Of a stretch of 40,183 nucleotides of DNA, positions 1-38,566 are shown piece by piece (within the stretch, counting starts at the first letter, position 1; the number at the start of each line of letters is the position of its first letter). The position numbers were made by a program, and so were the translations under genes. Origin of the DNA: a virus; IMG/VR virus record IMGVR_UViG_3300020220_000129, positions 1 through 40,183 of that record; one strand, given 5' to 3'. The notes beneath the pieces are model-generated. The model was given only the letters and a program-made list of their open reading frames with translations, had not been told where the DNA came from and ran no database searches.

Positions 1-168
1 ATGCTTAAGGCTTCTTCACTAGACCGTCTTGGAATCGGAAATGAATCTAACTACAACGAGTACTACTGGTCTGTAAAGTCCATCGAAGAGGGCGGTAAGG
101 TTCTAACCTTGGACCTTTGTGTCGAAGACAACCATACCTACCTTGCAAATGGATTTGTATCGCACAAC
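1..168 (+). other. C-terminal intein segment (intein 1 of the reductase, 5' part not visible)
   Basis: Residues 1-56 carry intein blocks F and G: LDLCVEDNHTYLANG followed by FVSHN, with Thr57 as the +1 nucleophile. Penultimate His and terminal Asn are both present, so the C-terminal chemistry looks intact. The preceding YYWSVKSIEEGGKV resembles the linker before block F in many inteins. The N-terminal splicing domain and any endonuclease are upstream of the window, or in a separate gene if this is a split intein; the sequence here cannot tell. Confidence 0.88.
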
Positions 169-3033
169 ACTCGTCGCGGAGCCCAGATGGGCATACTACG
201 GGTTGATCATCCCGATATTCTTGAGTTTATTGACTACAAGCAGGACCTTACCAAGCTTACAAATTTCAATGTTAGTGTTGGCGTTACAGACGACTTTTTA
301 AAGGCCCTGGATGCTGACGAAGAGTTTGAACTTGTTGACCCTGCTGATGGTCCAACCGGCAGTAAGCTTCGTGCAAAGGACGTTTGGAATCGTATTATCA
401 CCCGCGCCCACAGTACCGGTGAACCAGGAATTGTATTTCTGGATCGCATGAATAAGCATAATCCTACGCCTAAGCTTGGTCCCTACGAAGCAACCAATCC
501 GTGCTGGACTGGTGATACAAAGGTCTGGACCATTTATGGTCCCAAGACATTTGCTGAACTAGCTAGCTCCGGGGAAGATATTCCTGTACTGTCACAGGAT
601 GCCAACAACCAGCTGGTATTCAAGATGATGCGTAATCCCCGACTGACAAAAAATAACGCTGAGATCTTGGCCGTAACCCTTGATGATGGGACTGTTCTTG
701 AGCTTACACCTAACCACAATCTCTACCTCAAGAACGGTAACAAGGTCATGGCAAAGGACCTGGAAATTGGCGTATCACTGGGTAGTGTTTACCGGTATAG
801 CGCTAGTAGCAAGGGTTATCTACGACTTACAAACGGTGTTGATACTCCTATGGAACATCACGTAGTAGTATCTTGGAATAGTGGTCGTAGGCCTAGCTAC
901 CCAACTGAGCATTGCCACCATATTGACAATAATAATATTAATAACCTTCCAGATAATCTAGAAATTATTTTGGCATCTCAGCACAACAGCGAACACATGC
1001 TTGGTATCAATAATCCAATGTCAGGTGTTTGGGATGAAAGAAATCCTCTTTTTGGTAGACCTACTGCTGGACAAGACAATGGCAGGTATCGCACAGACAT
1101 CGACGACCAGGAACTTGAAGCACTAAGAGCTTCAGGAATGTCCTATAAGGACATTGCCAAGGTTACTGGGTGTAGCAAGTACACTGTAATGAAGCGTCTT
1201 GGCTGGGTACGACCTGGATCAAAAGAAGCGGTAGCAAACCATAAAGTTGTATCAATCACCAAGCTAGAAAAAACTGCTGATGTTTACAACGGAACAGTAG
1301 ATGATACCCACCGTTACTTTGTAATGTGTGGTGAAAATGACGCAATCCTTTCTGCAAACTGCGGGGAACAGCCCCTAAATCCTTATGAATCCTGCAATCT
1401 AGGGTCTATCACTCTAGATAACATGGTTTCCTATGGAGAAGATAACAAGCCGTTTCTTGATGACGAAAAGCTTCAAGAAGCTGTTTGGCTTGCAACGCAA
1501 TTCATGGATGACGTTGTTGATGCAAACGAGTATGTTCCACGGGTTCCTGAAATTCGTGAAACAACCCTTAAGACTCGTAAGCTTGGTTTAGGTATCATGG
1601 GGCTTGCCCGAATGCTTTGTAAGCTAAACATTGCTTACAACAGCTCAGAGGGTCGTGCCATGGCTGAACATGTCTATGCATTTATTGACCTTCACTCAAA
1701 GGCTGCCTCCACGGAGCTGGCACGCGAGAGGGGTGCTTATCCCTATTTCATGGATAATCTTGACGAGTCCATGGAATTCTTCCGCAAGGATCTTCAGGAG
1801 CGTTCAAATCGCGCTCTGGAGTCTGGGATGGAAGAGATTAGTGATGGGTACTTGCAGGTACTAAACCAGATTGAACAACACGGTATTCGTAACAGCACAA
1901 CTACAACAATTGCACCTACAGGCACTATCTCCATGGTTGCTGACACAAGCGGTGGTTGTGAGCCATTGTTTGCACTTGCATTCAAGCGATTCCAGGCAGA
2001 AACCCAGATGATTGAAACCGACAAGATTTTCTTGGCGGCTCTAGATAATCTTGGACTTTCTGCAGAGGTCAAGAATCATGTACTAGAAGAAGTAACCAAG
2101 AATGAAGGCTCACTAATCAATGCATTGGCCAGGGTTCCTGGACTACCTGCAGAACTAGAACCACTCGCACAAGTATTTGTAACCGCTGGGGATATTTCTC
2201 CAGAAGATCATGTACTCATGCAGGCTGCCTTACAGAAGTACTGTGACAGTGCAATTTCCAAGACTGTAAACGCTCCTGAGAACTATACAGTCGAAGAAAC
2301 AGCACGTGTTTATGATCTTGCTCTCAAGACCAACTGCAAGGGTGTAACTATCTACCGTAATAACAGCCGCCAGTTCCAGCCCCTAGCAGTTACGAGTGCT
2401 CCAGCTACACCAGAATCAACTGGGCTTTCCAGTGCAGATGAAACCAGCATCATTGAGCTTGTAGAAAAGGTCATGAAGGTTCACGAACCCCGTGAGCGTC
2501 CTAACAGGCTCTTTGGATTCAACGACCGTATCGAAACAGAACAGGGCAAGCTATACGTCCAAGTAAACTATGACTCACAGGGTGTTCGTGAAGTCCTAGC
2601 AAATCTTGGTAAGGGTGGGGGTGTCCTTAGCTCTCTCGTAGAAGCTATTGGTCGCCTTATCTCAGTTGCACTCAAGCACCATACACCTGTTGAAGATCTA
2701 AGCCAAAGCCTCCGCGGTATTCGTGGTGGTAGCCCAAATGGCTTTGGTCCTAAGCAAACCCTTAGCATCCCTGATGCTATTGGTAAGGTACTTGAAGCGA
2801 GCCCAGAAACACTCGGTGTAACAAGTTCACAGCCTGAACCACAATTAGAACAGGTAGGTGTTCTATATAAAGAGCACCGTGTACCCAGTGCACCTGTTGT
2901 AAACACACCAGTAAGCCTAGATCCAGTACGTGACTTAGGTCACAGCCCAGAGTGTGCAGAATGCGGAGGTACCTTGGTATTCTCTGAGGGCTGCATGTTT
3001 TGTCCTCGGTGCTTTACTAGCAAATGTAGCTAA
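1..3033 (+). CDS. nrdJ: Adenosylcobalamin-dependent (class II) ribonucleoside-diphosphate reductase, 5'-partial, with two inteins
   Basis: This enzyme reduces ribonucleotides to deoxyribonucleotides using B12 as radical source, supplying dNTPs for phage DNA synthesis. Visible residues 1-56 are the end of an intein; reductase sequence starts at T57 (TRRGAQMGILRVDHPDI). A complete intein occupies residues 168-453. Splicing restores NPCGEQPL, the N-x-C-x-E active-site motif. Further hallmarks are PTGTIS (639-644), SGGCEP (650-655), a TSCPD-like domain at about 835-935, and a Cys-rich tail with C985, C988, C998, C1001, C1004 and C1009, typical of class II enzymes that carry a reducible C-terminal Cys. 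Visible extein is 668 residues. About 200 N-terminal residues expected for the family lie outside the window or in another gene. The frame is open from base 1, which happens to be ATG, so the true start cannot be decided. An intrinsic terminator follows the stop. Class assignment is firm; the start is not. Confidence 0.95.
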   Translation: MLKASSLDRLGIGNESNYNEYYWSVKSIEEGGKVLTLDLCVEDNHTYLANGFVSHNTRRGAQMGILRVDHPDILEFIDYKQDLTKLTNFNVSVGVTDDFLKALDADEEFELVDPADGPTGSKLRAKDVWNRIITRAHSTGEPGIVFLDRMNKHNPTPKLGPYEATNPCWTGDTKVWTIYGPKTFAELASSGEDIPVLSQDANNQLVFKMMRNPRLTKNNAEILAVTLDDGTVLELTPNHNLYLKNGNKVMAKDLEIGVSLGSVYRYSASSKGYLRLTNGVDTPMEHHVVVSWNSGRRPSYPTEHCHHIDNNNINNLPDNLEIILASQHNSEHMLGINNPMSGVWDERNPLFGRPTAGQDNGRYRTDIDDQELEALRASGMSYKDIAKVTGCSKYTVMKRLGWVRPGSKEAVANHKVVSITKLEKTADVYNGTVDDTHRYFVMCGENDAILSANCGEQPLNPYESCNLGSITLDNMVSYGEDNKPFLDDEKLQEAVWLATQFMDDVVDANEYVPRVPEIRETTLKTRKLGLGIMGLARMLCKLNIAYNSSEGRAMAEHVYAFIDLHSKAASTELARERGAYPYFMDNLDESMEFFRKDLQERSNRALESGMEEISDGYLQVLNQIEQHGIRNSTTTTIAPTGTISMVADTSGGCEPLFALAFKRFQAETQMIETDKIFLAALDNLGLSAEVKNHVLEEVTKNEGSLINALARVPGLPAELEPLAQVFVTAGDISPEDHVLMQAALQKYCDSAISKTVNAPENYTVEETARVYDLALKTNCKGVTIYRNNSRQFQPLAVTSAPATPESTGLSSADETSIIELVEKVMKVHEPRERPNRLFGFNDRIETEQGKLYVQVNYDSQGVREVLANLGKGGGVLSSLVEAIGRLISVALKHHTPVEDLSQSLRGIRGGSPNGFGPKQTLSIPDAIGKVLEASPETLGVTSSQPEPQLEQVGVLYKEHRVPSAPVVNTPVSLDPVRDLGHSPECAECGGTLVFSEGCMFCPRCFTSKCS
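502..1359 (+). other. Complete intein (286 aa) with HNH homing endonuclease, in the reductase active site
   Basis: The intein begins at Cys168 (CWTGDTKVWT, block A) and ends at Asn453 (AILSAN), with Cys454 as +1 residue; the exteins join as ATNP-CGEQPL. Block B shows TPNH. The insert includes an HNH_3-like endonuclease (HCHHIDNN at 304-311, then NNLPDNLE at 314-321, H328 and H332). A NUMOD3-like DNA-binding motif follows (NNPMSG and NPLFGR, 337-353), and then a helix-turn-helix segment (about 366-403). Block F reads VYNGTVDDTHRYF. The penultimate residue is Ala rather than the usual His, a deviation tolerated in some inteins. The insertion splits the codons around the catalytic cysteine, so an unspliced protein should be inactive. 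Confidence 0.93.
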
Positions 3034-3125: not shown

Positions 3126-3866
3126 GTGGCACAGAAAAATTCAAATCGTTCTAGCCAGCGTCATAATGAAGGTAGACCATCTTCTTCGCGGTTCAGGGAC
3201 GATGATGATATTCCTAATCCACAAAAAATAAATCTTAGACGCTTGAAGTGTGTACAAGTTACACCTCGCGTAAACCAAAAAGTAGTCTTGAACTTAATTG
3301 AAGACTACGACCTTACATTTTTAATTGGGCCTGCAGGAACCGGTAAAACATTCTTGCCAGTTGTCTATGCCGTAGACATGCTTCGTCGCGGTGAAATCAA
3401 AAAGATTGTTGCTGTACGACCAGCAGTAGAAGCGGGCGACTCAATCGGTTATCTTACCGGGGGCCTATCTGAAAAGATGGCCCCTTATTTACGCCCAGTA
3501 CTTGATGCATTTGAGAAAATTCTTGGTAAGCCTCAGCTTGATGCTCTCATGCGAGAAGGCATTATTGAAATTACAAGCCTTACTTACCTACGTGGTCGAA
3601 CCATTGAAGATGCTGTATATATCATGGACGAGATGCAAAATGCTACGCCAGCACAGCTCAAGATGGCTCTAACCCGAATCGGTGAAAACTGTACAGCCGT
3701 AGTAACAATAGATCCACACCAGTGTGATATTCCTGTTGAAGAGTCTTGTATTCGAGATCTTACAAGGTTTGAAGGTAACAGCGAAATTTCAATCTTTAGA
3801 TTTGCTGTTACCGACGTAGTACGATCTGAGATCGTAAAAACAATTCTTAAAGCTTATAATAATTAA
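3126..3866 (+). CDS. phoH: PhoH-like P-loop ATPase
   Basis: A 246-residue PhoH-family ATPase. It carries Walker A GPAGTGKT (68-75), the family motif RPAVEAGDSIGYLTG (98-112) and Walker B-type YIMDEMQN (165-172). The N-terminal 40 residues are polar, Ser/Arg/Asp-rich and probably disordered. PhoH family members couple ATP hydrolysis to RNA-related functions in bacteria; the role in phages is unresolved, although the gene is so common in aquatic phages that it is used as a marker. The start is GTG at 3126, chosen because AAAAGGG (3112-3118) sits 7 bases upstream and no in-frame ATG lies nearby. It lies downstream of the reductase on the same strand, separated by a terminator, so it may have its own promoter. 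Its 3' end overlaps by 20 bases the end of a convergent small reading frame. Confidence 0.96.
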   Translation: MAQKNSNRSSQRHNEGRPSSSRFRDDDDIPNPQKINLRRLKCVQVTPRVNQKVVLNLIEDYDLTFLIGPAGTGKTFLPVVYAVDMLRRGEIKKIVAVRPAVEAGDSIGYLTGGLSEKMAPYLRPVLDAFEKILGKPQLDALMREGIIEITSLTYLRGRTIEDAVYIMDEMQNATPAQLKMALTRIGENCTAVVTIDPHQCDIPVEESCIRDLTRFEGNSEISIFRFAVTDVVRSEIVKTILKAYNN

Positions 3867-4051: not shown

Positions 4052-4073
4052 AAGCCCCGGTTTACCGGGGCTT
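4052..4073. terminator. Bidirectional hairpin terminator between the convergent transcription units
   Basis: AAGCCCCGG, loop TTTA, CCGGGGCTT: a perfect 9-bp GC-rich stem. On the + strand it is followed by ACCTTTCTTTATTTTTC, suiting phoH termination. On the - strand it follows the stop of the coiled-coil gene by 8 bases and is followed by TCTTATG. It can serve both converging transcripts. Confidence 0.8.
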
Positions 4074-4081
4074 ACCTTTCT

Positions 4082-4297
4082 TTATTTTTCAGCAGATTCT
4101 GCCTGTACTTCAGCAGATTTATTTGTAGATTCTTCAGCAAACTTAAGAACCTGCAGAATAATTCTGCCGTGTTCAATCTTTTTATTGACCTGTTCTAAGT
4201 TCTTGTTGACTTGTTCTAGAGTTTCAAGAAGCTCAGCCTTATTTGCAAGATTAGCTTGCAGCTCTTTCTCAGTCTGTTCAACTGCTTCGTTTAGCAT
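4082..4297 (-). CDS. Small coiled-coil protein (71 aa), unknown function
   Basis: A 71-residue charged protein rich in Glu, Lys, Leu, Asn and Ala. The segment from about 5 to 45 has heptad-like Leu/Val spacing with repeated LEQVNK units (LETLEQVNKNLEQVNKKIE), so a coiled coil is likely. There is no signal peptide or membrane span. The start is supported by a strong GGAGG site (4305-4309), 7 bases from the ATG. A candidate promoter element (4329-4342) lies just upstream and a hairpin terminator just downstream, so the gene could be expressed by itself as well as by read-through from the tail operon. I do not recognise a family. Confidence 0.72.
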   Translation of the reverse strand: MLNEAVEQTEKELQANLANKAELLETLEQVNKNLEQVNKKIEHGRIILQVLKFAEESTNKSAEVQAESAEK

Positions 4298-4328
4298 GAT
4301 AAAGCCTCCGGGCTAGTTTTATTACCTA

Positions 4329-4342
4329 TCTAGATAATACTA
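4329..4342 (-). promoter_or_regulatory. Candidate phage promoter element, copy 1 (TAGTATTATCTAGA)
   Basis: This 14-base sequence (given on the - strand) is identical to one at 34788-34801. It lies 32 bases upstream of the coiled-coil gene start in a 68-base gap. It contains the AT-rich core TATTAT, which could act as a -10-like element. Function is inferred from duplication, orientation and position only. Confidence 0.45.
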
Positions 4343-4357
4343 TAGTTTATAAATACT

Positions 4358-4377
4358 GACTATAACTACTTATAGTC
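4358..4377. repeat. Inverted repeat at the end of the two-TM gene
   Basis: GACTATAA, spacer CTAC, TTATAGTC: a perfect 8-bp inverted repeat that includes the stop codon of the upstream gene. It shares the string ACTACTTATA with the inverted repeat at 34802-34821, and both lie on the upstream side of the same 14-base element. It could be an operator or part of a promoter. With no U-tract it is a weak terminator candidate. Confidence 0.45.
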
Positions 4378-4719
4378 GTTGGGATCATCGTCGTGAATCC
4401 ATGGGTCCTTTGCGGGTTCCGGTTCAATGTAGACAATCAATTCAGTCTTTGATTTTGGTTTTGTTTTGAAGGGTCTTTCAACAAGACTGTCTTCGGTTTC
4501 AAGGTTGTACTTCAAAGCAAGCTTACTTGTAAGCCAGTTATGCGCTTTTGAAACCATGATACCTACAAGTAGCCCAATACCCAAGATGAAGCTCCAGTGA
4601 ACATCAAGTAGTAAAGCAACAGTAGCAAGAAGTATTGTAATGACAGAAGCAATTACCCCGAACATCAAGAAAATTTTGTTATCAATGTTCTTGATGTGCT
4701 GCTTTTCTTCTTCAGTCAT
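4366..4719 (-). CDS. Putative two-TM membrane protein with acidic tail (117 aa), holin-like topology
   Basis: The N-terminal 16 residues are charged. Two hydrophobic spans follow (about 17-38 and 43-60) with a very short turn (LDVHWS), then a hydrophilic C-terminus ending in acidic DDDPNDYK. This layout, in a phage late region a few genes downstream of an amidase, is compatible with a holin, but no family motif is recognised and another membrane role is equally possible. The start is 4 bases after the stop of the tail-fibre chaperone gene, with no clear Shine-Dalgarno site, so translation is probably coupled. The 3' end overlaps an inverted repeat. Confidence 0.72.
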   Translation of the reverse strand: MTEEEKQHIKNIDNKIFLMFGVIASVITILLATVALLLDVHWSFILGIGLLVGIMVSKAHNWLTSKLALKYNLETEDSLVERPFKTKPKSKTELIVYIEPEPAKDPWIHDDDPNDYK

Positions 4720-8000: not shown

Positions 8001-9216
8001 TAACAGTAAGTGTTCCTTCGCTTGTTACAGGCGATCCTGACACATTAAACACATCTGTAGGCATAGCAAGTGCGACGCTAACCTGTGCAAGACCACTAGG
8101 AGCTAAGATTTGCTGCCAGTTTGCTAAAGTAGATGCTCCAGCAGTCTTTAGAACAAACGATGTTTCAATGTCAGTACGAACAACAATATCGCCTACTTGA
8201 GCTGTAAGGGCTAACATTGCTTCTTCTGTAGCAACAACAAACGTATTAGTAATTGCTAAATCTGGCAGCTGTGTCGTAGGTAGTTTACCGTCAGCATCCA
8301 ATGATGCGTAACCGCTAGCTGTACCTCTATTAGCAGCATTTTCAGGGGTAAAAGTCAAAGCAGTTGTAACATCCCCAGATGTAAGAGAAATAGCTCCAGT
8401 ACGCGTATTAAAAGCTGATACGTAGTTTCCAGAAGCTACACTTGTTAGATTGGGATGGTAAGCTTGAACATCTTGACCAATGACCAAGCCTAAATTAGTG
8501 CGTGCAATTGACGGTGTTGTTCCGCCCGTACCGCCGCTAGAAACAGGCAAAGTTCCTGCAACGTCTGTACTTAGAGCAACCTTGCCCCATGTAGGCGGCC
8601 CACTGACGTTTCCGTGGAGTACTTGATTGGATAGCCCTAAACCAGAGACAGGCTCAGGTCCTGCTCCAGCACCACCGCCAACTAACAAAGCATATTGTGT
8701 CAGTACTAGAACTCTTGCAAATGTACTGGTACTGGAGAAATAGGGAATACCCCCTGAAGTACCATTTGCTGTAACGCTTAAAGTTCCTCCACCGGTTACA
8801 GGACTGCCACTAACAGTAAAAATTGACGGCATTGATAAACCAACACTGGTTACTGTACCGTCTCCGAATCCCTGACCTAAAGGACCAAATGTTGTACCGT
8901 TTGCTCGATAATACAACCCAGCGGTAGTGATCCATATGTCGCCGTTGCTTGGTGCACTAGGAGCATTTCCGGGCAAGACATTTACAAGCCCAGAAATGTT
9001 TAATTTTGATCCTAAGCTTATTGAGTCAATTGCTGTATTTGTGCCACGAGTAATAGTCAGTGCTGAGATACCATCGTCGTCAGCATCATTACGAGTTCGT
9101 ATTGAGAATATCTTAGAGTTTAAAAAGATATCCCAAACACGTTCATTTGCAGATTGGTCCTTTTCTCTAAAGAACAAGCGAACTACATCGCCAATACCGT
9201 ACTGCTGCTTGAACAT
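5035..9216 (-). CDS. Large repeat-rich tail fibre protein (1393 aa)
   Basis: A presumed trimeric fibre for host attachment. The N-terminal ~75 residues (MFKQQYGIGDVVRLFFREK...) form a distinct probable anchoring domain. Residues from about 110 to 970 are built from repeats of GTVTSVGLs-type strands, GGTLSVT-type strands and LPVSRGGTGLSS units, typical of phage fibre shafts. Two consecutive ~120-residue blocks (about 505-750) are near-duplicates. A poly-Gly stretch lies near 820-830. The C-terminal ~400 residues are non-repetitive and Tyr/Asn/Thr-rich, the likely receptor-binding tip. There is no visible chaperone autoprotease motif; a separate chaperone gene follows. The start codon lies one base after the amidase stop (TAATATG) with no clear Shine-Dalgarno site, implying coupling. 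The receptor cannot be inferred. Confidence 0.9.
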   Translation of the reverse strand: MFKQQYGIGDVVRLFFREKDQSANERVWDIFLNSKIFSIRTRNDADDDGISALTITRGTNTAIDSISLGSKLNISGLVNVLPGNAPSAPSNGDIWITTAGLYYRANGTTFGPLGQGFGDGTVTSVGLSMPSIFTVSGSPVTGGGTLSVTANGTSGGIPYFSSTSTFARVLVLTQYALLVGGGAGAGPEPVSGLGLSNQVLHGNVSGPPTWGKVALSTDVAGTLPVSSGGTGGTTPSIARTNLGLVIGQDVQAYHPNLTSVASGNYVSAFNTRTGAISLTSGDVTTALTFTPENAANRGTASGYASLDADGKLPTTQLPDLAITNTFVVATEEAMLALTAQVGDIVVRTDIETSFVLKTAGASTLANWQQILAPSGLAQVSVALAMPTDVFNVSGSPVTSEGTLTVTLDTQTANTVFAGPSTGSATAPTFRALVADDIPNISANKITSGTLPVSRGGTGLSSVGTANQILGVQDPNSGGLEYKTLTAGSGISITHGAGSITITSTGSGSGTVTSVGLTVPTGLSVTPASITTSGTFAVTLAAGYSIPTTASQTNWDTAYTDRLKWDGSSSGLTASTGRTSLGATTVGSNLFTLTNPGAVSFLRLNANNTVTALNALDFRSAIGAGTGSGNGTVTSVGLTVPTGLSVSPASITSSGTFSITLASGYSIPTTASQTNWDTAYTDRMKWDGSDTGLTASTGRISLGASTVGSNIFTLVNPGAVSFMRINADHTVDALSAANFRTAIGAGSGDGTVTGVTASSPLSSSGGAAPNITLSGTVGVSNGGTGLSTTPTNGQLLIGNGTGYTLANLVAGSNITITNTAEGIEIASGGGGGGGAGGGSVTSVGLSAPANIFNIAGGPVTTSGTLALTLDNQNANTVFAGPTGGSAAEPGFRSLASADIPALSTDTLTSGTLPVARGGTGLSSLGASNQVLKVNSSGTALEFAPSSPQLGSNRQTVLSGPRNGLYASYLTSGAGLTVGINGSVTPVELSFANGFNNGPLDYFEQITTNVSGAWTLPANATSYLYIERTDASALTYGSTTLQPYYIDSNTYYTQLVVEVYDYHSSPGTWNHGATLNEITFTVKKETSGFESDQTYLYTVSSTEAYDSRMNGVPFYWNHANYFNKSNLNDGATAYSVSNSILLMYGPTEPSPARPGMGDWARFLITFPEMPVGALTMTVNIGDSQGHTPVTVSVYAVTGTYNKAQHLNVRTNSGLTLLGSVSPGDNVTTPTTYTVFENLNTESLVENRFKFDIAQMKMYKQVSGSLVNTNAIFVGEATTNATGVTNLVNYAYRGFFVTPRQTHGGSNTSYRFNHNLGCLPLYFRHVGMVGISNPTTNEYNEPIHYATSSTAFHGSTLAYVGTLSAYIMVRGSGVRGYVGSSTAALGWGRLIVSRGW
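6965..7690 (-). repeat. Tandem duplication inside the tail fibre gene (two ~360-bp units)
   Basis: Two consecutive units with boundaries near 6965, 7322 and 7685. Both encode GTVTSVGLTVPTGLSV, SGYSIPTTASQTNWDTAY or AGYSIPTTASQTNWDTAY, WDGS, GLTASTGR, TLVNPGAVSF or TLTNPGAVSF, and a closing AIGAG segment. At protein level most positions are identical, while the DNA differs at many third positions, so the duplication is not recent. Confidence 0.85.
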
Positions 9217-9217
9217 A

Positions 9218-9811
9218 TTAGTCTACTAAAATAGCCTTATAGCTAAATTTAGACTTGCCAGATTTAAGAGAATCGTACTTACTGATAACTGAGTTTTTAA
9301 AGTCAGGAAAATACTTACCAATGTCAGACTTTTGATTACGACCAATTTCAATATCTACCAAACGGTGATCTGTAAGGTCTTTTGTTCGTGGGTCCAGATT
9401 ATGCCAACACATAAACTCTGCAACAAACTGAGAAGCTACATCAAGCATCTCAGCAGTAATAGGGCACTTACCCGTTAACGTATCTGGGTCGGTCTTCATC
9501 ATCGCTGCAAAGCCAACACCGATATTGCTTTTATTAGCCTTAAAGGCATGACGACCATATTGGCTAATCTTGAGTGTTTTGACAACATGTGCTTTTTTAC
9601 GTGCTACATCAAAAACAACATTGTAGTGGTAGCCATCAAATGCCATAGCATAGGGCCCAACGGACCAGTGCATAGTTACTCGTTCGATCTTTCCTAGATC
9701 AAGGTGTCGTTGATCGTTCTCGTACTCAACAGTAATAGGTAAACCATCTACGGTAGCTCTTAGAGCCTTACCAGGTTTTGCCTGCTTATCACTAAGATCC
9801 AAATAACCCAT
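9218..9811 (-). CDS. N-acetylmuramoyl-L-alanine amidase endolysin (Amidase_2 type)
   Basis: A 197-residue zinc amidase expected to cut the peptidoglycan amide bond for host lysis. The fold signature is RVTMHWSVGPY with zinc ligand H48, YHYNVVFD (61-68), IGVGFAAM (97-104), DHRLVDIE with H149, and the closing KSDIGKYFPDF, in which D163 takes the third zinc-ligand place and FP follows as in many family members. No signal peptide, membrane span or cell-wall-binding domain is evident, so export should need a holin. Upstream GGAG sits 9 bases before the ATG. The start lies inside the end of a 47-codon membrane-peptide frame, and the stop abuts the fibre start. Family assignment is firm; cleavage specificity is inferred. 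Confidence 0.9.
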   Translation of the reverse strand: MGYLDLSDKQAKPGKALRATVDGLPITVEYENDQRHLDLGKIERVTMHWSVGPYAMAFDGYHYNVVFDVARKKAHVVKTLKISQYGRHAFKANKSNIGVGFAAMMKTDPDTLTGKCPITAEMLDVASQFVAEFMCWHNLDPRTKDLTDHRLVDIEIGRNQKSDIGKYFPDFKNSVISKYDSLKSGKSKFSYKAILVD

Positions 9812-9935
9812 GGATTAGATCTCCAAATTCGTTCAGGGGTAAAGGATTTCCACCAGAAACGAATACTAGGTAGCTCCAAGTTCCAACAATGACAAAAACT
9901 AAGCAGAACTCTAGTAATCGCTTTATAACGACCAT
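9792..9935 (-). CDS. Putative single-span membrane peptide (47 aa) upstream of the amidase
   Basis: A short frame that begins MVVIKRLLEFCLVF and has one hydrophobic span (about 7-29) preceded by Lys-Arg and followed by a polar tail (GGNPLPLNEFGDLIHG). It fills a 161-base gap between terminase and amidase and overlaps the amidase start by 20 bases in another frame, an arrangement common for phage lysis genes. Its start has only a weak TAGAG-like ribosome site. Possible roles are pinholin/antiholin, lysis regulator or spanin-like peptide; nothing in the sequence chooses among them. It could also be a chance frame, but the length, location and amphipathic layout argue for a gene. Confidence 0.5.
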   Translation of the reverse strand: MVVIKRLLEFCLVFVIVGTWSYLVFVSGGNPLPLNEFGDLIHGLFGS

Positions 9936-28726: not shown

Positions 28727-30823
28727 TTATACCCTCCAGTAAACCTGAGATTTAGCCAATGCATTTGCAACAAATGTGTATCGTTCAATTGTTGTAGTCC
28801 ACCATTTTAAAGCCAGCGGATCTGATATGTCTCCCAAATAAGTTTGAAAAATTTGTAAAAATTCTTGTTTTGATACAGCTGAAGTTTTTCCAGCATATGT
28901 ACTTAAAAATGTTTGAGCTAGTTCTTTACCAGGCTGTCCATTAAAAAGCCTAAGCATAAGATAAATAATAAAACTACTAGTCCATAGCTGAGAAACAACC
29001 TGACCACTTTTACCAAGCTTATCTACTAGTTTTAGTGCTGTTGTATTAGATTTAAACGGCGAACCTACACGGCCCGTAAATGCTTCAATATCAGAGTTGT
29101 ATTCTTTTATAATGTATAAAATTTCTTGTACTAGTGTACGAACCTGGGCTGTATAACCACCAGCAACGCCATACTTCAAACTATTTGTGGTGTGACTAAT
29201 ACCGGTTGTATCAAGGTATAAACGATCAAGAAATCTTTTTCCAGATGTATCTTTTAAAGCTGCTACATTTGGTACATAAAAGTTGTTCGCTTTTAACCAA
29301 CCCTCGGCTGAGGTAGATATTTCTTTTAAATTTGCATGTGTTATATCTGCATAAGTGTATTGTTTTTTATTATTTGGTGATAAAGTATATCCTGTAAATC
29401 CAGCTAACTTATTAAAGTTTGATCTATCACTTAACATACTTTCTTTATAATTTATATCATTAAATCCAAAAATATTTTCATGTATAAATAAATCTACATT
29501 ATTTTCAATAGTACTTATAGAAGCATTTTTTATTTTATAAAGCTTTAGTGGGTATGAATTTAGTAACGTTTTTAATCCAACTGCCTGTGAGTTATATAAC
29601 AGTGAAAGTCTTAGTGCAGCAATTAAATTAATCCAAGCAGATCCGTAACCATTTAAACCATTAAGGCAATTTAAGTTATTAGAAGTAGCTGGGTCAAAGC
29701 TATTTAAATTTCCTACAAGTGCTGTTGATGGAAAATAAGATCCACCAATTTTGCTTACATTTAAACCCTCAGTATAAACTCCCGCTGTGAGTGCTCCAGC
29801 AATTAAGTATTTAAAGTTATCTGTAGGTTTGTAATTAGTTCTTACAAAGTTTAGTAAAGTTTTACTATCTTCAGTTTTATTTGTATAAAATATATCGGAT
29901 TGCTCAATAACAGAAAAGTAGCCTTTAGATTTTAATTTAAATTCAGCAGCTTCTTTTATAGCTAATTCATAAATTAGTGGTGAAACTCTAAATTCAAATT
30001 TTTCTGGAAATAGAAAATTTTCTAAATTAGTTTTAACTTCTAAGTCAAGGGACTCTACTAAATCATTTAGGGGATCTTTTAAAAATGATGATACAGGTTG
30101 ACTAGAGCCTAAAGCAAATACATCAATTTCTTTTGCAAGACTATGAATGATGTCTCCAAACATACCAACATGACCCACCCCATCTTTATCAACCCAGGGT
30201 GAAATACCAGCTGGGGTGCTATCTTTGACAGCGTTTTTGATAGCTTGACTTGACGGTGTTTTAGGGTTTAAAAGAGTTTTCAGCTTAAACCCATTTGCTA
30301 CAACAATCTTTCCGCCTACAGCATTTTGACTGTAAGGTGCAAATCTAAAGCCTCGAGCTGCATTCTGCTTTGTCCAGTAAGTGTCTGAACCACCATCTAA
30401 AAACCTAAAGCCATTACCGTCTTTGTCCACAGCTATGTACTTCGTAGGGGGCTCTATATCGTCTTTTAAGACGGGTATTACACTAGTAATGACTGGCTCA
30501 ATCCGCCCTGAAATAAACGTTATTTGGACGTGTGTACCGGGCTCTAAAGGCTCAGGCATCCTTGCCCTATACCTTGTGAAGTTAGACTTTACGGTTTTGA
30601 CTTCGCCGTCTACAACGTCTTCTGCGTTTTCAGAGACGTTAAGGAGTTTTACCTCAACCGTATTAAAATCTGAATCACCACCTGGTACAGCTACAATCGC
30701 AAAACTTTCCAAGACATTAACAGACTCTACAATCCCAAATCGGGTTGTACTAGATTCTTGTTTTTTCTCTACAACGGTCTTGAATTGCTCAAGACCTAAT
30801 CCGCGTAAAAAGTTTTGATCCAT
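28727..30823 (-). CDS. Baseplate/spike protein with N-terminal OB-fold-like domain (698 aa)
   Basis: Residues about 28-120 (RFGIVESVNVLESFAIVAVPGG, VEVKLLNVS, RYRARMPEPLEPGTHVQITF, RIEPVITSVIPV) follow the strand pattern of the gp5/gpV/VgrG OB domain that caps the tail tube. A Gly/Phe-rich segment follows (GNGFRFLDGG; GFRFAPYSQN), then a long, mainly helical C-terminal region (about 250-698) without a recognised family. There is no lysozyme motif and no extended beta-helix in this protein. It follows the hub/SLT gene and precedes the other baseplate genes, which fits a central spike or hub role. The OB assignment is by pattern only. Confidence 0.72.
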   Translation of the reverse strand: MDQNFLRGLGLEQFKTVVEKKQESSTTRFGIVESVNVLESFAIVAVPGGDSDFNTVEVKLLNVSENAEDVVDGEVKTVKSNFTRYRARMPEPLEPGTHVQITFISGRIEPVITSVIPVLKDDIEPPTKYIAVDKDGNGFRFLDGGSDTYWTKQNAARGFRFAPYSQNAVGGKIVVANGFKLKTLLNPKTPSSQAIKNAVKDSTPAGISPWVDKDGVGHVGMFGDIIHSLAKEIDVFALGSSQPVSSFLKDPLNDLVESLDLEVKTNLENFLFPEKFEFRVSPLIYELAIKEAAEFKLKSKGYFSVIEQSDIFYTNKTEDSKTLLNFVRTNYKPTDNFKYLIAGALTAGVYTEGLNVSKIGGSYFPSTALVGNLNSFDPATSNNLNCLNGLNGYGSAWINLIAALRLSLLYNSQAVGLKTLLNSYPLKLYKIKNASISTIENNVDLFIHENIFGFNDINYKESMLSDRSNFNKLAGFTGYTLSPNNKKQYTYADITHANLKEISTSAEGWLKANNFYVPNVAALKDTSGKRFLDRLYLDTTGISHTTNSLKYGVAGGYTAQVRTLVQEILYIIKEYNSDIEAFTGRVGSPFKSNTTALKLVDKLGKSGQVVSQLWTSSFIIYLMLRLFNGQPGKELAQTFLSTYAGKTSAVSKQEFLQIFQTYLGDISDPLALKWWTTTIERYTFVANALAKSQVYWRV

Positions 30824-30834
30824 ATATGTAACTT

Positions 30835-33800
30835 CTAGTATCCCCCAAACGGTAGTTTTGGTTCTTCACGCGTAGGTATTCTACTAGGTATAAACTTAGA
30901 TTCTCCTGCTTTTTCAGAATTAATTAATCCTGGAATCTTTGCTTTAAGATCTGCTATTTTTCCATTCAAATAAACAATAATTGGATCGATTTGCTTGTAT
31001 AAGATAGGAAAATTTTTTCTCATTTCTATAACGTGTTGTCTTTCAGCAACATATATAAAATACTTAACTAATTCTTTTTGAGTTGGTGTATACAAAAATG
31101 TTTCTGCTTGGTCTTCTAAACCTTTACCAGGTTCGGTATTATTAATTGCTATTTCAATTGCTTGATTTAAGGCTTTCTCATAATCTGAAAAAAGTACAGT
31201 TACTGTATCAAGATAGCCACCTATAAACTTTCCTGCATCCCACCCTAAAATACTTAATATAATAATACCTAGTACGCCACCTAAAACAACTCTAAGAGCA
31301 GCCGTACCAGTTTCAAAAATTGCAGCTAAGATAGAATTGTATATTACAGTAGCTGTAGATCTTATAAAAAGTGCTACCCCAGCAGCTGCTGGTCCTGTAA
31401 ACGTTCCTAAAATTTTTAAAATAGTTTCATTTGCTTTTGAGCTAGCAAAATCAAATGGCCATACTACCATTCTGGGTGGTATAAAATCATAATCATTCCT
31501 TGCTTCAATAATTGGTCTGTTTTCTTCCATTACCTCATTAAAAAGTTGTATATCTTCAGGGTTTAACAAAAACTTTTGTATAGGTTGATTATTTGCATCT
31601 AAAAAATACTCAGCAACAGATTTTGGAAGTGGTGGATTTGCTGCTTTTACTTTTTCTACTAATTTATTAGCTTTACGATATACTTCATTAACGGCACTTG
31701 TATAATGAACACCATATTTATAATTAAACTTCCCTGCAGAAACTTTTTCAGAATCAACTAAAGGTTCTTTGAATTCTGTAATAGGTTTTCCTAAAGTCCA
31801 ACATAAATATTGATAAGTAAAAATTTCATAAGCAGCTATTAGTTCTTCTAGCTCTTTAGCTAACACAGCATGGGCGTATAGTACCATTAATTCTGTTGAA
31901 TAACGTATATAAGAAGATTGTCTTATCTTTGATACATTTATAGGTTTAACAAGATTATCTATAGGAATATTAAGATCACCTGAATCTAGAGCCGGATCTC
32001 TACTCAAAGCTGAAACATCTAGGGCACTATTTTGTAATCTAAGAATCTCTTGCAAGTGTGCAGGCAACTTACGCGGATCAAATGAACCTTGTGGATCTAC
32101 AACTACACCCATAGTTACGCAACCATTTTGAACGCCACCCGACGAAAACATATGGATGACGCCCTCTAAGCGCATTACGTGGTTGTCAAAAAACCCCATA
32201 TTATTTAAACGCACCATATGGCTTGGTCGCATATCTGGATTTAGCGGAACCATGAAATCTGCTGTATGTAAATCTTTTCCATGTACATTAATCATTGCAT
32301 TCAAGATTAAGTCCATAGTGTTTGTTGTTACCGTTTCATCAGAAGTCTCATCCCAGAGAAATCTATTTCGAATCGGTAGTCTAAGTTTACTTACAAACTT
32401 AAGTGGCTGTGCTGTAGTTGGGCCTAAAAGCCCAGGATTAGTTATATCAATGGTGCTTTCGCTAGGAACTGGTGGCTCTGCAAAAGCTGATTCTTTCTTA
32501 GCTGCTGCGCTTGTTGATGCAGTAGCTGCACCGTAAGATGTTGCATCATTTGTTAGTGCCATAGCTTGTTCATATGTAATTCCTGAGATTGTTGGTGTAC
32601 CAAAAAGACTCTGGCTTGCACTAATTTTTGCTTTACCACCCGCACTATTATTGTGTTGAGGTGTAACTAGAGTAAATCTTGTAACCATACCTAAAGTAGA
32701 CCAACTTGAATGTGCAGAAAGTACATTAGGTTTAATTTTATTAGTAACGGGTTCAAATGGATCCCTTGTAGGATCACCCCAAGTAATTGGTGCTCTACGA
32801 TCTTTAGATCTAACTAGTTCGAATGGATCTCTTTTAGGATCACCCGAACTAATTTCTGTCCCAACTTTTTTATAAGATAATATCCAAGGATTATCTTCGC
32901 CCCGTAATACAGAAATATCTTCAGTTATTGCAACAGTAGTTACAGTTGATGCATCAGTTCCAGTAGTTCGGGATTTTTCAGCAGCCAGCCAACCATTATA
33001 AAGTGGTAACCACAATAGTTCTTTTGTGGGTGGATAAACTGCAGATGATCGCCTAGCCCTGATATTATTTGCATACCGCTTAGTCTCAGTATTTGTAATA
33101 ATTGAAGAAGAAATAATTGTATCAAAAGAAAGTTTTCCAGGATTGCTTCTGAGTTCTTGCTCTACAACATATATAAATTGAGGTTTTTTTGTTCCAGGAA
33201 CTATATTACCCGCGCCTACATATAGTGTTAGTGTAAACATAAGAGCATTTTCTGTAGATAATTTTCCAGCATTATATAAATCTTCAATGCTTTGACCGTT
33301 AAAGTATTTAGCTCGAGCTTTGTTAACCATGACTTGCCAACCCATCTCTAAGTTATAGAGAGGATTACTCTTTAAAAGAGATACATCTACTCCAGTTAAA
33401 CCACTCTTCGCGTTAGGCATAACTTGTGCAAGGCCTACAGCGCCGGCATTTGAAGTATTAACCTCTCCGTCTTTGTAGTGCAACCACTGGCTTTCCAATT
33501 GAATTTGTGCAGCAAATGTAATCGGATCCAAAAACTTTGGACTACGCGCTTGTTGACTTAATTGAATAATTTTACTTGCCCATTCATAAGCGGTTTTTTC
33601 ATCGATTTTATTTGATGTTTTGAATCCTGTTATAGGTGCATAAGTTTCTGTACCAACGTAATTGTTATAAAGTTTGATAGCTCTAGCTAAACCATCCAAG
33701 TTGTAGCTAGCAGCTCCAGCTGACTTAATACCCACACCTCCGCCAAACAGAGAAGCATCTTTAGTTCGCTTATAAGGCTCCCCACGAAGTCTACAAGACC

Positions 33801-34767
33801 AGGCTATATTACCTGTGTTAGGGTCACAGTACAGTTCTCTGGGAACTGTCTCGATACTTGAAAACCACCTAATAGCATCCACAGGAAACTGATCTAGCAA
33901 AGCGTAAGGAGAGGCTCCGTTAGCAAGTGCACCTGTATGCTCCTTTGTAACCCCAGTAGCCCCACCAAAAAGTTTCATAGGAGGTCTTCCGCTGGGATGA
34001 AACAATAACTCGCTTGCTGGTGTACAAGCACCATTACTACCTTGGGTTATAAGTGTTTGTACAATTTTTGTTCGATCAACACCTGTAGTAAAATCTTGAC
34101 CAGGTATTGTTATGCCACCAAAAATCTTTGTATCAATTAAAAACCGCATTCTGTCCCGCGCAGTAATAATACAATTTACACCATCTGCAGGACTGTCTCC
34201 TCTACCAAGTTTAAGGTCTACTGTATCAATAACCCCTGTAAATACTTTAGTAAACTTTACTGGATTTACCTCATATGTAAGACTTACATATTTTCCTACT
34301 TCGTCAAACTTAGATAAGTACCCCATCCATATTTCGATTTCCATTTCTGGTCGAACTTCTTGTGTGTATGGGTCATCTTTAGTACCTGATTCAGTACCAA
34401 ACAAACTATATCTACGAGCATCAAACTCTTTAGGTGCAGTTCCAGAGTACTCTAATCCTGGTGCTGGTATGGGACTTTCAAGAAAAGGTAAATCTATACC
34501 AAGTGCTATTCTTGCAGATGATGCTGCGTAATACCTTACAAGCTGAACTCGAGCATTCAAAACTTTCCAGGCTGTATTTGAGTGAAAGACTCTTTTCCAA
34601 CCACCTAAAGGTTTTATACCAGAAGCCGTATGCGCGTTGTATTGTGGCTGCGTACACACAACAATACATGTCGGTACAGTTTCAGATGAGTTTGGTAGAG
34701 TGTGGTCACTATCACTCATAACATAAGAATAGTTAACACCACCCTTACTATTTGGAACCCATCCCAT
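30835..34767 (-). CDS. Baseplate hub/tail protein with lytic transglycosylase (SLT) domain (1310 aa)
   Basis: The N-terminal ~250 residues resemble tail hub (gp27/gp44-like) domains: EIEIWMGYLSKF, KVFTGVIDTVDLKLG and CIITARDRMRFLI. An SLT lytic transglycosylase follows (about 405-540), with catalytic E425 in AAQIQLESQW and the motif NAGAVGLAQVMP (440-451). The middle resumes hub-like strands (PSHMVRLNNMGFF, GVIHMFSSGG). Near the C-terminus (about 1120-1180) lies a long hydrophobic Gly/Ala-rich stretch, VALFIRSTATVIYNSILAA and VLGGVLGIIILSIL, which may insert in membranes. Role: tail-tip wall hydrolysis during DNA entry plus baseplate core. The gene follows a terminator and a candidate promoter, with TAGGAG 12 bases before the ATG. 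It may also combine parts usually held by separate proteins. Confidence 0.86.
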   Translation of the reverse strand: MGWVPNSKGGVNYSYVMSDSDHTLPNSSETVPTCIVVCTQPQYNAHTASGIKPLGGWKRVFHSNTAWKVLNARVQLVRYYAASSARIALGIDLPFLESPIPAPGLEYSGTAPKEFDARRYSLFGTESGTKDDPYTQEVRPEMEIEIWMGYLSKFDEVGKYVSLTYEVNPVKFTKVFTGVIDTVDLKLGRGDSPADGVNCIITARDRMRFLIDTKIFGGITIPGQDFTTGVDRTKIVQTLITQGSNGACTPASELLFHPSGRPPMKLFGGATGVTKEHTGALANGASPYALLDQFPVDAIRWFSSIETVPRELYCDPNTGNIAWSCRLRGEPYKRTKDASLFGGGVGIKSAGAASYNLDGLARAIKLYNNYVGTETYAPITGFKTSNKIDEKTAYEWASKIIQLSQQARSPKFLDPITFAAQIQLESQWLHYKDGEVNTSNAGAVGLAQVMPNAKSGLTGVDVSLLKSNPLYNLEMGWQVMVNKARAKYFNGQSIEDLYNAGKLSTENALMFTLTLYVGAGNIVPGTKKPQFIYVVEQELRSNPGKLSFDTIISSSIITNTETKRYANNIRARRSSAVYPPTKELLWLPLYNGWLAAEKSRTTGTDASTVTTVAITEDISVLRGEDNPWILSYKKVGTEISSGDPKRDPFELVRSKDRRAPITWGDPTRDPFEPVTNKIKPNVLSAHSSWSTLGMVTRFTLVTPQHNNSAGGKAKISASQSLFGTPTISGITYEQAMALTNDATSYGAATASTSAAAKKESAFAEPPVPSESTIDITNPGLLGPTTAQPLKFVSKLRLPIRNRFLWDETSDETVTTNTMDLILNAMINVHGKDLHTADFMVPLNPDMRPSHMVRLNNMGFFDNHVMRLEGVIHMFSSGGVQNGCVTMGVVVDPQGSFDPRKLPAHLQEILRLQNSALDVSALSRDPALDSGDLNIPIDNLVKPINVSKIRQSSYIRYSTELMVLYAHAVLAKELEELIAAYEIFTYQYLCWTLGKPITEFKEPLVDSEKVSAGKFNYKYGVHYTSAVNEVYRKANKLVEKVKAANPPLPKSVAEYFLDANNQPIQKFLLNPEDIQLFNEVMEENRPIIEARNDYDFIPPRMVVWPFDFASSKANETILKILGTFTGPAAAGVALFIRSTATVIYNSILAAIFETGTAALRVVLGGVLGIIILSILGWDAGKFIGGYLDTVTVLFSDYEKALNQAIEIAINNTEPGKGLEDQAETFLYTPTQKELVKYFIYVAERQHVIEMRKNFPILYKQIDPIIVYLNGKIADLKAKIPGLINSEKAGESKFIPSRIPTREEPKLPFGGY

Positions 34768-34787
34768 GTATAGCTGTAACTCCTAAT

Positions 34788-34801
34788 TCTAGATAATACT
34801 A
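34788..34801 (-). promoter_or_regulatory. Candidate phage promoter element, copy 2 (TAGTATTATCTAGA)
   Basis: Exact 14-base match to 4329-4342. It lies 21 bases upstream of the hub gene start and downstream of a strong terminator, exactly where the new transcription unit must begin. It directly adjoins the inverted repeat at 34802-34821. No canonical -35 was identified. Confidence 0.5.
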
Positions 34802-34821
34802 GATACTACTTATATAGTATC
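34802..34821. repeat. Inverted repeat next to the candidate promoter of the hub operon
   Basis: GATACTA, spacer CTTATA, TAGTATC: a perfect 7-bp inverted repeat in the 114-base gap upstream of the hub gene. It shares the core ACTACTTATA with the repeat at 4358-4377. It is a candidate protein-binding site. Confidence 0.45.
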
Positions 34822-34831
34822 ACACGAAAGC

Positions 34832-34869
34832 AAAAAAAAATAAGCCCCCGGTAAAGCTACCGGGGGCTT
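34832..34869 (-). terminator. Strong intrinsic terminator after the tail tube gene
   Basis: A perfect 12-bp stem (34842-34853 with 34858-34869; AAGCCCCCGGTA on one arm) and a 4-base loop, followed on the - strand by an A and nine T. It begins 12 bases after the tube stop codon and separates the sheath/tube message from the hub/baseplate message. Confidence 0.93.
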
Positions 34870-34881
34870 AAATAATTTTAC

Positions 34882-35385
34882 TTAACTAATAGTGATACCT
34901 TCAGCAGTGCCCTGCCACTGGTTTGCAACAATATTACGACCCGATGTTGCACCAAAAGACATTGTGTCTACTTTACAAAACTGCAACATGTAAGATGTTG
35001 GACCACCAGACCTAACCTGTCCATGCTGGTTAGCCATCTGGTCATCTACAAAGTCTGCTTTCTCTACACCTACTTTAAAGGTAATAGTAAATCGACGAGC
35101 ACGTTTAATTTTATTATTTCTACTAATACTATTGCTATCAAAAAATCCAAAAGTGTCTTGTAAAACTTTTGTATTTAACATACCGCGTTCACACTGCCAA
35201 ACAATATTAACTTCACCGTCTAGGTGTCGTGGGATACGTTGATTAAGTTCTAAGTATGTTTCCGTAACGTTGACAACACGTACTAGAATGGATGTAAAAC
35301 GGCCAACTAAGATTGGACCGCCAATGGCAGTAATACTAACATCCACGTCAAACCCCTGAATAGGGTCAAGAATATTATTTGACAT
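34882..35385 (-). CDS. Tail tube protein
   Basis: A 167-residue protein encoded 16 bases after the sheath gene, followed by a strong terminator. Size, the sheath-tube order and a beta-rich pattern (VDVSITAIGGPILVGRFTSILVRV, RARRFTITFKVGVEKADF, SYMLQFCKVDTMSFG) fit the inner tube subunit of contractile tails, which forms hexameric rings. ATG 35385 is preceded by AGGAG with 9-base spacing. High expression is expected from the strong ribosome site and dedicated terminator. No sequence signature proves the family; the call rests on context and composition. Confidence 0.78.
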   Translation of the reverse strand: MSNNILDPIQGFDVDVSITAIGGPILVGRFTSILVRVVNVTETYLELNQRIPRHLDGEVNIVWQCERGMLNTKVLQDTFGFFDSNSISRNNKIKRARRFTITFKVGVEKADFVDDQMANQHGQVRSGGPTSYMLQFCKVDTMSFGATSGRNIVANQWQGTAEGITIS

Positions 35386-35401: not shown

Positions 35402-38400
35402 TTATTGTCCAGCTTGAACAGTAACTGAAACAGGTACTACTCTATGTAAGCCTACTGTAATAAAGTCTGCTGGGTACACCGGGGTAAAGAACATATCTAC
35501 CCTTAACATACCTTGAGCAATCATGTTTGGTGTATTGTTTTCTGAGTCAACCTTAGTTTGCTGGAATCCATCAATTCGACCTTGTAGTTTCAACATGTAC
35601 ATAATTTGATCTACTGTTCCTGCAACTGTTGAACGTAGCTGACTATTATTAGGTTCAGACTTTGCAAACTGCAGAGCCTGGAAGGTTGTACCCCGAATAA
35701 AGTTATAAACCCTACGGAGTGCAATCCAATTCCATGCCGGGTCTGAAGATAGGCTCCTACCATTTAGGCAGTGGAAATTACCGGATACTTGATCTGGAAT
35801 AATCATTTCCAGCCTGGCCTTTGTATATGCGTTATAAGCCTGGCTGCCTGTTACAGGAATGTCTACTGCAGAAATTCCGGTAAATGGTGCTGCACTTGTA
35901 CGCGCAGCTGGTGAAGCTTCAAAGCGCTGCATAGCAGCAATATGCCCAGCGTAGAAACCGTCTGGTGGTGTAGACAGTGGTGCAAGATCTGAACGCTTAG
36001 AATATGTAGACCATCCACCAACCATGACTGCATAAGGACTATCAAGATTAGCTGTTTGTAACTGCGCCTGAGAAGCAGATAACCTGCGATCAGCTGCTAG
36101 TACTGCAATTCGAAGTCCGTTAATTTCATTAGATGCTGCAGCTTTTTCAATAAGCTTCTGACGAACTCCTGGGTGTGTATTTCCAGAAGCAATTAAAATA
36201 TTTACTGAATCTGAGTCAATTGCGTCCAGAACACGAAGATAGTCTTCAAATGTTGGTGGAGGACCATCCTGACCACCTAGTAATGGTAGATCTGATACAG
36301 CATGAATATCATCATCCAATGCATCATCTAGGGGGTTTACATAAATAGCTTTAATGTAATTTGATTGGCTTGTAGGAATAACAACTCGATAAGGCTTGCT
36401 GCCGTCTAAAGAAGTTTTCAAGTCAAACTGGAAGATCTCAACATCACCGTTATAAGTAGCGGTCAGAGAGATAAGCCCATTGTCCTTCAATACACTTACT
36501 TTTGCAAGATTGGACCATATCCCTTCAGAAGCAGCTTCAATCCTTAGTACATCCCCATTTACAGCCTTACCATATACTTCAGTGCTAAAAGAGCCAAGGT
36601 TATTCTGGGCAGCATTACCAGTTAGAGTATACTGGCCAATAACAACCTGATCACGGACTGCTTGATTTACAGTTTTAATTACTAAATTTCCTGATGCGTC
36701 AATTTCAGCAACAACATAGTTACTACCGTTATCTCCTACTGCTGGGTTACAGGTAGCTGCAGCTAAAGATTTTGTAACTCCATTAATTGTTACTTCACCA
36801 GAATTCAGCGTTAAAAGAACGTTGTTACTAGCCCACGAAAGTGTTGCTGTTGCTTGAGCGCGAACAAACTTACGGCGGCTAATTACAACATGTCCCTTTT
36901 TAGGGCCATCTTCACCGCCTTGAAGTAAAACGCTTAAACCATTTGATAGGTCAGATAGTAGGGCATTTGGTGCTCCGGAACGGTACTTCATACCTAGTGA
37001 ACCAATTGTCGACAAACTGCCAGACTGATAAAGTCCAACATTTAGTAGTGAGGCATTGCCTTCTGCACCTAAAAACCTACTTGTAAGTACAAGTTCGTTT
37101 AAAACTGGTCGTACAGTTGCTGTAAGACCTAGACCCCGACTATTCAAGCTCTGGGATAGAGCTGCGGCAAGAGACTCTGCAGTAGTAGATCCCTGAACCA
37201 CGTCTGCTTCTGCCCCTAGCATTATGTGGAGATGGAACGGCTTTACGGCACCTCCAGGCTTAAAAAGTTTAGAATTAGACCAGGTTGCAGTTACGTTTGC
37301 GGAAACCTTTGCACTAAGAGTAACATCAGCACTCATTGGTGCAGCAGGAGCAGGACTTACTGTTAGGACACCAGCATTTGCTACAAAATTTAAGTCGGAA
37401 CGTGCTTCCTGTAACTGACGCTTTAGGTCTGCAACTAGGGCAGCTACAGTAACTAATGCAGGTTTTAAAACACCAGGATTGTTAAGAGTCGCCGTTCCAG
37501 TAGGAGAAGGGCTACCTGTTGCAGGTATCACAGAAGCCGTAATACTAATGTTAGCAAATGACTTGTTAGCCACTGCAGCTACTGTTAAAACACCATCATT
37601 AGCAACGGTTAAAGTTACATTTCCCTGTGCAAGAAAAACTGGATTTTTTTGTGTAAAGTTTGTCCGAATATCATCCATAAGGTTTTTAATAGTATTACTA
37701 CTGGTTTTAAGAGTTGATTGAACATTAATACCACCAATAGTTACTGAGACCTTTTCACCCTCGGCAATAGCTGCGGGAGTTACAGTTACAGACTGTGCAT
37801 CCTGACGAGTAGCAGTAGCCTCAGTAAGTCCAACTTTTGCGGTTACGAAGTTTCCATTAGCTACTGACGACCCTAAAGTAACTGTTAAGTCGCTTGAAAT
37901 TGCAGACTGGTCGTACTCTACCGCAAAATTCAAGTTGCTACCAGAAAGCCTAACCAAGCTATCTGGAAGAAGTTCAGCACCATCTGGGAGCATAAACTTC
38001 ATACCGCTATTAGCAACAACACTACCAGGCTGGTTACGATCTACAAGTCGAAGAGCTAGTGGAAGACCATCGATTGATGATTGAAGGTTTACAACGTTAC
38101 CAGCTGCAGAAGCTCGCATAAATCCAAAGTTAAAAGCATTAACTGCAGTAACAATGTCTTGAGCTAGATCTTCTTTTGAAGTAACGCCTTCTCCTAAAAC
38201 AGGAACTACATATCCTGTAGACATCAATACAACCTTGCCACTTGCAGTTGCAACACCATCTAACACAGGACGCAGATAGCCTGTTGCGGGGCGAGCTTGT
38301 CCCATTACACGTCGGACACCAAAGTCCCGAGCGCCCTGGTCCATTGCAGTTTGAATTGCAATAGAACCATTCTTTGTGTCAGTACCAAAAATCTTTGCTA

Positions 38401-38551: not shown

Positions 38552-38557
38552 GGTAAC

Positions 38558-38566
38558 CTTCCTCCT
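38558..38566 (-). promoter_or_regulatory. Strong Shine-Dalgarno site setting the sheath start
   Basis: AGGAGGAAG lies 6 bases before ATG 38551 and overlaps the stop codon of the upstream gene. It is the best ribosome site in the window and decides the sheath start over the longer alternative. Confidence 0.85.

Follow-up and report, generated by a model that had tools for sequence, protein, structure and literature searches.

The closest described system is that of Ma-LMM01 (Fukuivirus), a distant cultured relative of the phage studied here. In the sections of PMC5780444 that deal with its promoters, the late ones follow the pattern WTNNA-N16-22-TATTMT, with no phage-specific motif, and the phage is described as being without gp55 and gp33. 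Four sites, predicted by BPROM, underlie this consensus, and only five late genes are named alongside a middle pattern consisting of a -10 TANNNT; with five late genes in all, most virion genes of Ma-LMM01 are therefore not late (PMC5780444). The same sections leave open by what means such phages, having no sigma factor of their own, schedule the expression of their genes.

The window analysed here is an IMG/VR virus record of 40,183 bases, whose source is an uncultured phage that is distant kin of the Microcystis phages. With three records that belong to this species, 99.75-99.92% identical across 13-29 kb, the known sequence grows to about 70 kb, the extension including about 29 kb from the overlapping record G002. 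It had been proposed that a 14-mer occurs at two places on the - strand of the window, before - strand genes with good ribosome sites. This is confirmed here: both copies (sites A and B) are exact matches lying in non-coding gaps (4298-4365 and 34768-34881), each ahead of a - strand ORF with a GGAGG or AGGAG ribosome site, and the end of the 14-mer is 31 nt (A) and 20 nt (B) from the ATG. The features of the two regions are the following.

4052-4073, scored on the + strand: terminator-like hairpin, in the space where ORFs 3126-3866 (+) and 4082-4297 (-) converge
4082-4297, - strand: ORF of 71 aa, coiled-coil-like, on the downstream side of site A
4329-4342, - strand: site A 14-mer TAGTATTATCTAGA, exact match
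4329-4333, - strand: CTAGA, read as the flanking box of site A
4334-4339, - strand: TATTAT, read as the -10 of site A, its end 36 nt ahead of the ATG that opens ORF 4082-4297
4357-4362, - strand: TAGTCA, possible -35 of site A, with a 17-nt spacer to TATTAT and 9/12 sigma70 matches
4358-4377, - strand: inverted repeat of site A, GACTATAA-GTAG-TTATAGTC, with 8-bp arms and a 4-nt loop
4366-4719, - strand: ORF of 117 aa that includes hydrophobic stretches, on the upstream side of site A
30835-34767, - strand: tail-region ORF of 1310 aa that follows site B and contains a weak lysozyme/transglycosylase-like stretch
34788-34801, - strand: site B 14-mer TAGTATTATCTAGA, exact match
34788-34792, - strand: CTAGA, read as the flanking box of site B
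34793-34798, - strand: TATTAT, read as the -10 of site B, its end 25 nt ahead of the ATG that opens ORF 30835-34767
34802-34821, - strand: inverted repeat of site B, GATACTA-TATAAG-TAGTATC, with 7-bp arms and a 6-nt loop
34841-34870, - strand: intrinsic terminator behind the tail-tube-like gene, a 13-bp stem followed by nine T
34882-35385, - strand: tail-tube-like gene, 167 aa, homologue of Ma-LMM01 gp092 (35% identity over 95%)
35402-38629: tail sheath gene, with phages of the Microcystis/Microcoleus group as best matches, as for the gp092 homologue

The reading towards which we lean, with some reserve, is that sites A and B are sigma70-class promoters serving genes of the virion region, dominated by the -10 TATTAT and accompanied by CTAGA, a box that recurs in the gaps. 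In both places the hexamer is within one base of TATAAT and lies at a fitting distance before the gene (36 nt at A and 25 nt at B), as in bacterial sigma70 (SigA) promoters with a weak or no -35. They differ from the bacterial sites in that neither carries a significant -35 or a TGn extension. The -35 hexamers are poor (4/6 with a spacer of 17 at A, and 4/6 only with a spacer of 19 at B) and none at 16-18 nt was better than chance; the TAGTCA of site A is not significant because the region contained five hits of this kind and the shuffles 5.0. The sigma70 scan thus yielded no more hits than shuffles do, site A passing at chance level and site B not being called. Sigma70-type promoters can do without a -35, and TATTAT would be the -10 of one in which this element is poor, with the transcript starting roughly 20-30 nt before the start codon. 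The likely reader would be the RNA polymerase of the host itself, and CTAGA would be a lineage-specific neighbour that may set promoter strength or bind a regulator.

The likeness to Ma-LMM01 extends to TATTAT, which fits the late -10 TATTMT, to the virion-region setting, to the homologues of gp092 and of the sheath gene, and to the fact that no gp55-type sigma factor was found in the records searched of either phage. With respect to the full late pattern of PMC5780444, in the form given in its promoter sections, site A fits whereas site B matches only the -10; the about 70 kb, both strands included, contain 32 occurrences of the pattern. TATTAT fits the middle -10 TANNNT described there as well. 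By analogy, sites A and B would be late, middle timing also being possible, and we do not insist on the former because the published consensus stands on four predicted sites, the late genes are five and the middle pattern fits too. The analysis shows directly the sequences themselves, the gap enrichment of CTAGA and TATTAT, the terminator and the lack of a sigma-factor match in the records searched. Promoter activity, start points and timing, as well as any role of the AT-rich dyads, are what we infer.

An AT-rich inverted repeat does lie upstream of each 14-mer, and the two have the 10-mer ACTACTTATA in common (4365-4374 and 34805-34814), as the original prediction had stated; that of site A shares bases with the stop codon of ORF 4366-4719, which lies upstream. 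The two dyads do not represent the same operator. The distance from TATAAGTAGT to the 14-mer is 22 nt at A and 3 nt at B, and the dyad centres are 4 bp apart within TATAAGTAGT, so that these sequences do not form a single rigid element or operator. Taken alone, the repeats carry little weight, since arms this good were found in 4.7% (A) and 7.2% (B) of 3000 composition-matched sequences.

A search for more copies of TAGTATTATCTAGA at 0-2 mismatches had been set as a test of the prediction, and the outcome went against it: the window contained none beyond sites A and B, and no third copy appeared in the about 70 kb, in which the sole two-mismatch match (67078 in extended coordinates) was inside an ORF. 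The same-species copies are identical, which shows no selection because the records are at least 99.75% identical overall. The 14-mer is frequent in other viral contigs (at least 120 stretches). Out of 79 matches examined among the loci listed, 63 were inside ORFs and 16 were mostly non-coding, a slight non-coding excess (P 0.04) with respect to the 12.8% non-coding share that a crude caller gave for those loci, and 18 matches extended at least partly beyond ORFs, two of which had an ORF start called within 150 nt. We rejected the idea that the 14-mer is a promoter word of viruses in general, although the non-coding excess counts against this rejection. A fixed composite element, searched for as the 10-mer plus 13 of the 14 bases at 0-30 nt, was also discarded: in viral contigs it was present only in three same-species records, there was none in genome contigs, and the spacing differs between A and B. 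A text search of the literature did not find the exact 14-mer, and in a search including TCTAGA this word was absent among the matches listed.

The original prediction also held that a 14-mer shared by two short non-coding gaps is unlikely by chance. Applied to the window as a whole this fails, since 25 repeated 14-mers (collapsed) were counted there against 5-18 (mean 10.9) in 20 order-1 simulations; it holds from gap to gap. Sharing between gaps arose in 10 of 4000 simulations for the seven gaps of the window (P 0.0025) and in 65 of 4000 for 18 gaps of the about 70 kb (P 0.016), these gaps being of at least 14 nt and their list slightly different from that of 16 gaps used below; both the 14-mer and a separate 10-mer were common to the two gaps in only 1 of 3000. 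The number of repeated 14-mers in the window and the frequency of the word in other viral contigs, mostly inside ORFs, would suit a coincidence between two AT-rich gaps. Nevertheless, the gap-to-gap values, and the enrichment of the core words in other gaps described next, make coincidence an improbable explanation.

A de novo motif search with its own list of 18 gap sequences produced CTAGA- and TATTAT-centred motifs. In its control, run only at widths 10 and 14, the log-likelihood was above that of all five shuffles, which were given fewer starting points, and we took these motifs only as a lead to the gap tests. The latter used gap lists that were ORF-based and hand-edited; 16 gaps entered the CTAGA and TATTAT counts and the orientation and spacing tests, after dropping 8551-8935, 30560-30834 and 55923-56132 as probably coding. 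CTAGA was the top gap-enriched pentamer of the phage in the about 70 kb, with 26 of 198 occurrences in gaps against 4.5 expected (p 9e-13). When each site was counted once the figures were 21 of 164 against 3.9, reached by 6 of 20000 circular shifts, with a CTAGA in 10 of the 12 gaps of at least 38 nt, and without sites A and B they were 18 against 3.4 (7 of 20000 shifts). CTAGA still ranked first with automatic gaps (25/198, 5.9 expected). In a profile of 49 automatically called start codons, CTAG peaked 31-45 nt before the start (9 against 3.2 expected), with 6 also in the bin at 106-120 nt. This strong gap enrichment makes some lineage-specific box look real. TATTAT occurred six times in the 16 gaps, against a circular-shift mean of 1.1 (49 of 20000 shifts reached six), and TATAAT was not enriched there (1 against 0.7). 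All six copies have sense orientation; one is in a divergent gap, and one, at 3.1 kb, is inside a terminator tail and may not count. CTAG was found 0-2 nt upstream of TATTAT in 3/6 copies in gaps and in 3/45 elsewhere (P 0.017, post hoc), and at site B a second CTAG immediately precedes TATTAT. A 10-bp spacing between CTAG boxes, suspected by eye, was discarded, as spacing 10 was seen only twice in gaps.

These counts would also be expected if CTAGA were the site for a phage-encoded regulator, either a MotA-like activator or a repressor, with A and B as its best operators and the 14-mer as an operator plus a -10. In keeping with this, CTAGA had no preferred orientation where gaps were not divergent (10 against 9), a pattern that a palindromic operator would give, and its enrichment was absent in four of the five relatives tested. 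However, no constant spacing was found between CTAGA and TATTAT or between boxes, no regulator gene was identified in the about 70 kb, and one relative also shows a marginal excess. We therefore regard such a regulator as a possible but rather unlikely explanation. The promoter of the original prediction stands as the best reading of both places; the 14-mer does not support a phage-specific polymerase or regulator, for which the CTAGA enrichment leaves room.

The relatives in which the gap enrichment of CTAGA was absent were Ma-LMM01 (about 149 kb), a Microcoleus phage (49 kb), G005 and G013 (40 kb). In this Ma-LMM01 differs from the phage studied here, with 21 of 517 CTAGA in gaps and 29.7 expected. 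The sole exception was G004 (194,626 bases), with 22 of 308 in gaps against 14.4 (p 0.03). The gap-enriched words of G004 were mostly terminator and ribosome-site words, together with CTAGACT (5 gaps) and CTAGTGTA (3 gaps), and those of G013 were AT-rich. At about 105-117 kb of G004 (L044), a block around TTTAAAAAG(AG)GG, then GGTGCG or similar, recurs in eight intergenic gaps, and may be a dispersed repeat family or a terminator-leader cassette.

We looked for the phage-modified RNA polymerase that had been suggested as the common factor and found nothing to support it. Sigma70_r2 had no match in five records of the phage and its relatives and the RNA polymerase domain Rpb2_6 had none in six; the T4 late-sigma family phrog_234 gave 0/6 (G001-G005 plus Ma-LMM01) with a positive T4 control. 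The polymerase result is that of Rpb2_6, since a search for T7-type enzymes, without a positive control, is not counted, and absence is not proven because the records of this phage, and those of several relatives, are fragments. A T4 gp55-like sigma factor or a phage RNA polymerase reading the 14-mer as a dedicated late promoter would account for its exact presence in two tail-region gaps and for TATAAGTA, contained in both dyads, which we take to resemble the gp55-dependent T4 late TATAAATA. Against it are these negative searches in G001-G005, mostly fragments, the lack of a third 14-mer in the about 70 kb, and the fact that words of the TATAAATA type are dispersed in coding DNA and not confined to gaps. 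We consider this explanation very improbable. In the relatives, a T4-type late motif was searched for as TATAA[AG]TA and rejected, with one occurrence in the gaps of 120 kb of G013 and none in the gaps of 120 kb of G014.

Site B directly follows the strong terminator of the tail-tube-like gene and would restart transcription of the next gene, the 1310-aa ORF, which matched phrog_669 (1.2e-6) and, below the cut-off, SLT. We infer that the 167-aa gene encodes the tail tube from its place beside the sheath gene. This gene hit 10 phage records in all: eight bear the name of a Microcystis phage, one is cyanophage MaMV-DH01 and one a Microcoleus phage. Ma-LMM01 and MaMV-DC are each represented by two records. 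The sheath ORF is long (1075 aa), and most of the phage matches listed span its C-terminal quarter only. The gaps after the tail-tube-like gene in relatives, 33 distinct ones taken from 49 of the 58 loci listed, were screened by script, and a hairpin was flagged in 17, that of L211 being far from the stop; in Ma-LMM01 one was seen by eye after gp092. L192, L193, L195, L207, L214, L221 and L229 are among the distant relatives that have a terminator-like hairpin there, its sequence differing. This recurrence suggests a conserved stop that parts tube and sheath from the downstream tail genes. Since the Ma-LMM01 hairpin is only about 13 nt from the next start, a promoter at that place is not general. 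In the gap matching site B, G004 and G005 have retained the terminator and lack the 14-mer, and G005 (L193) has a TATAAT at the corresponding position, 39 nt ahead of the start.

Site A would provide an extra, separate start for the 71-aa gene at the end of the tail-fibre block. No - strand terminator was called between ORF 4366-4719 and the next ORF. The 71-aa ORF had no PHROG match and only sub-threshold Pfam matches, and single-protein searches found relatives of the 71-aa and 117-aa ORFs solely in the same species. Elsewhere in the window, which contains no Rfam match and no tRNA, the gene for the large subunit of ribonucleotide reductase (1-3033) has matches to HNH endonuclease families within residues 259-405, which suggests an intein or an inserted homing endonuclease. 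A 47-aa ORF with a hydrophobic stretch (9792-9935, -), which lies immediately on the upstream side of the endolysin-like ORF 9218-9811 and overlaps it, is possibly a small lysis protein.

If sites A and B are only promoters of the host type, the finding is an ordinary one. It is also conceivable, although we hold it doubtful, that the lineage has evolved its own box, CTAGA (often ATCTAGA), in most of its longer gaps, and that a phage regulator reads it and times the virion genes. A lineage-specific box enriched in gaps, beside a -10-like hexamer, is a concrete candidate for temporal ordering and, if this were true, the CTAGA box would show how phages that lack gp55 part middle from late transcription.
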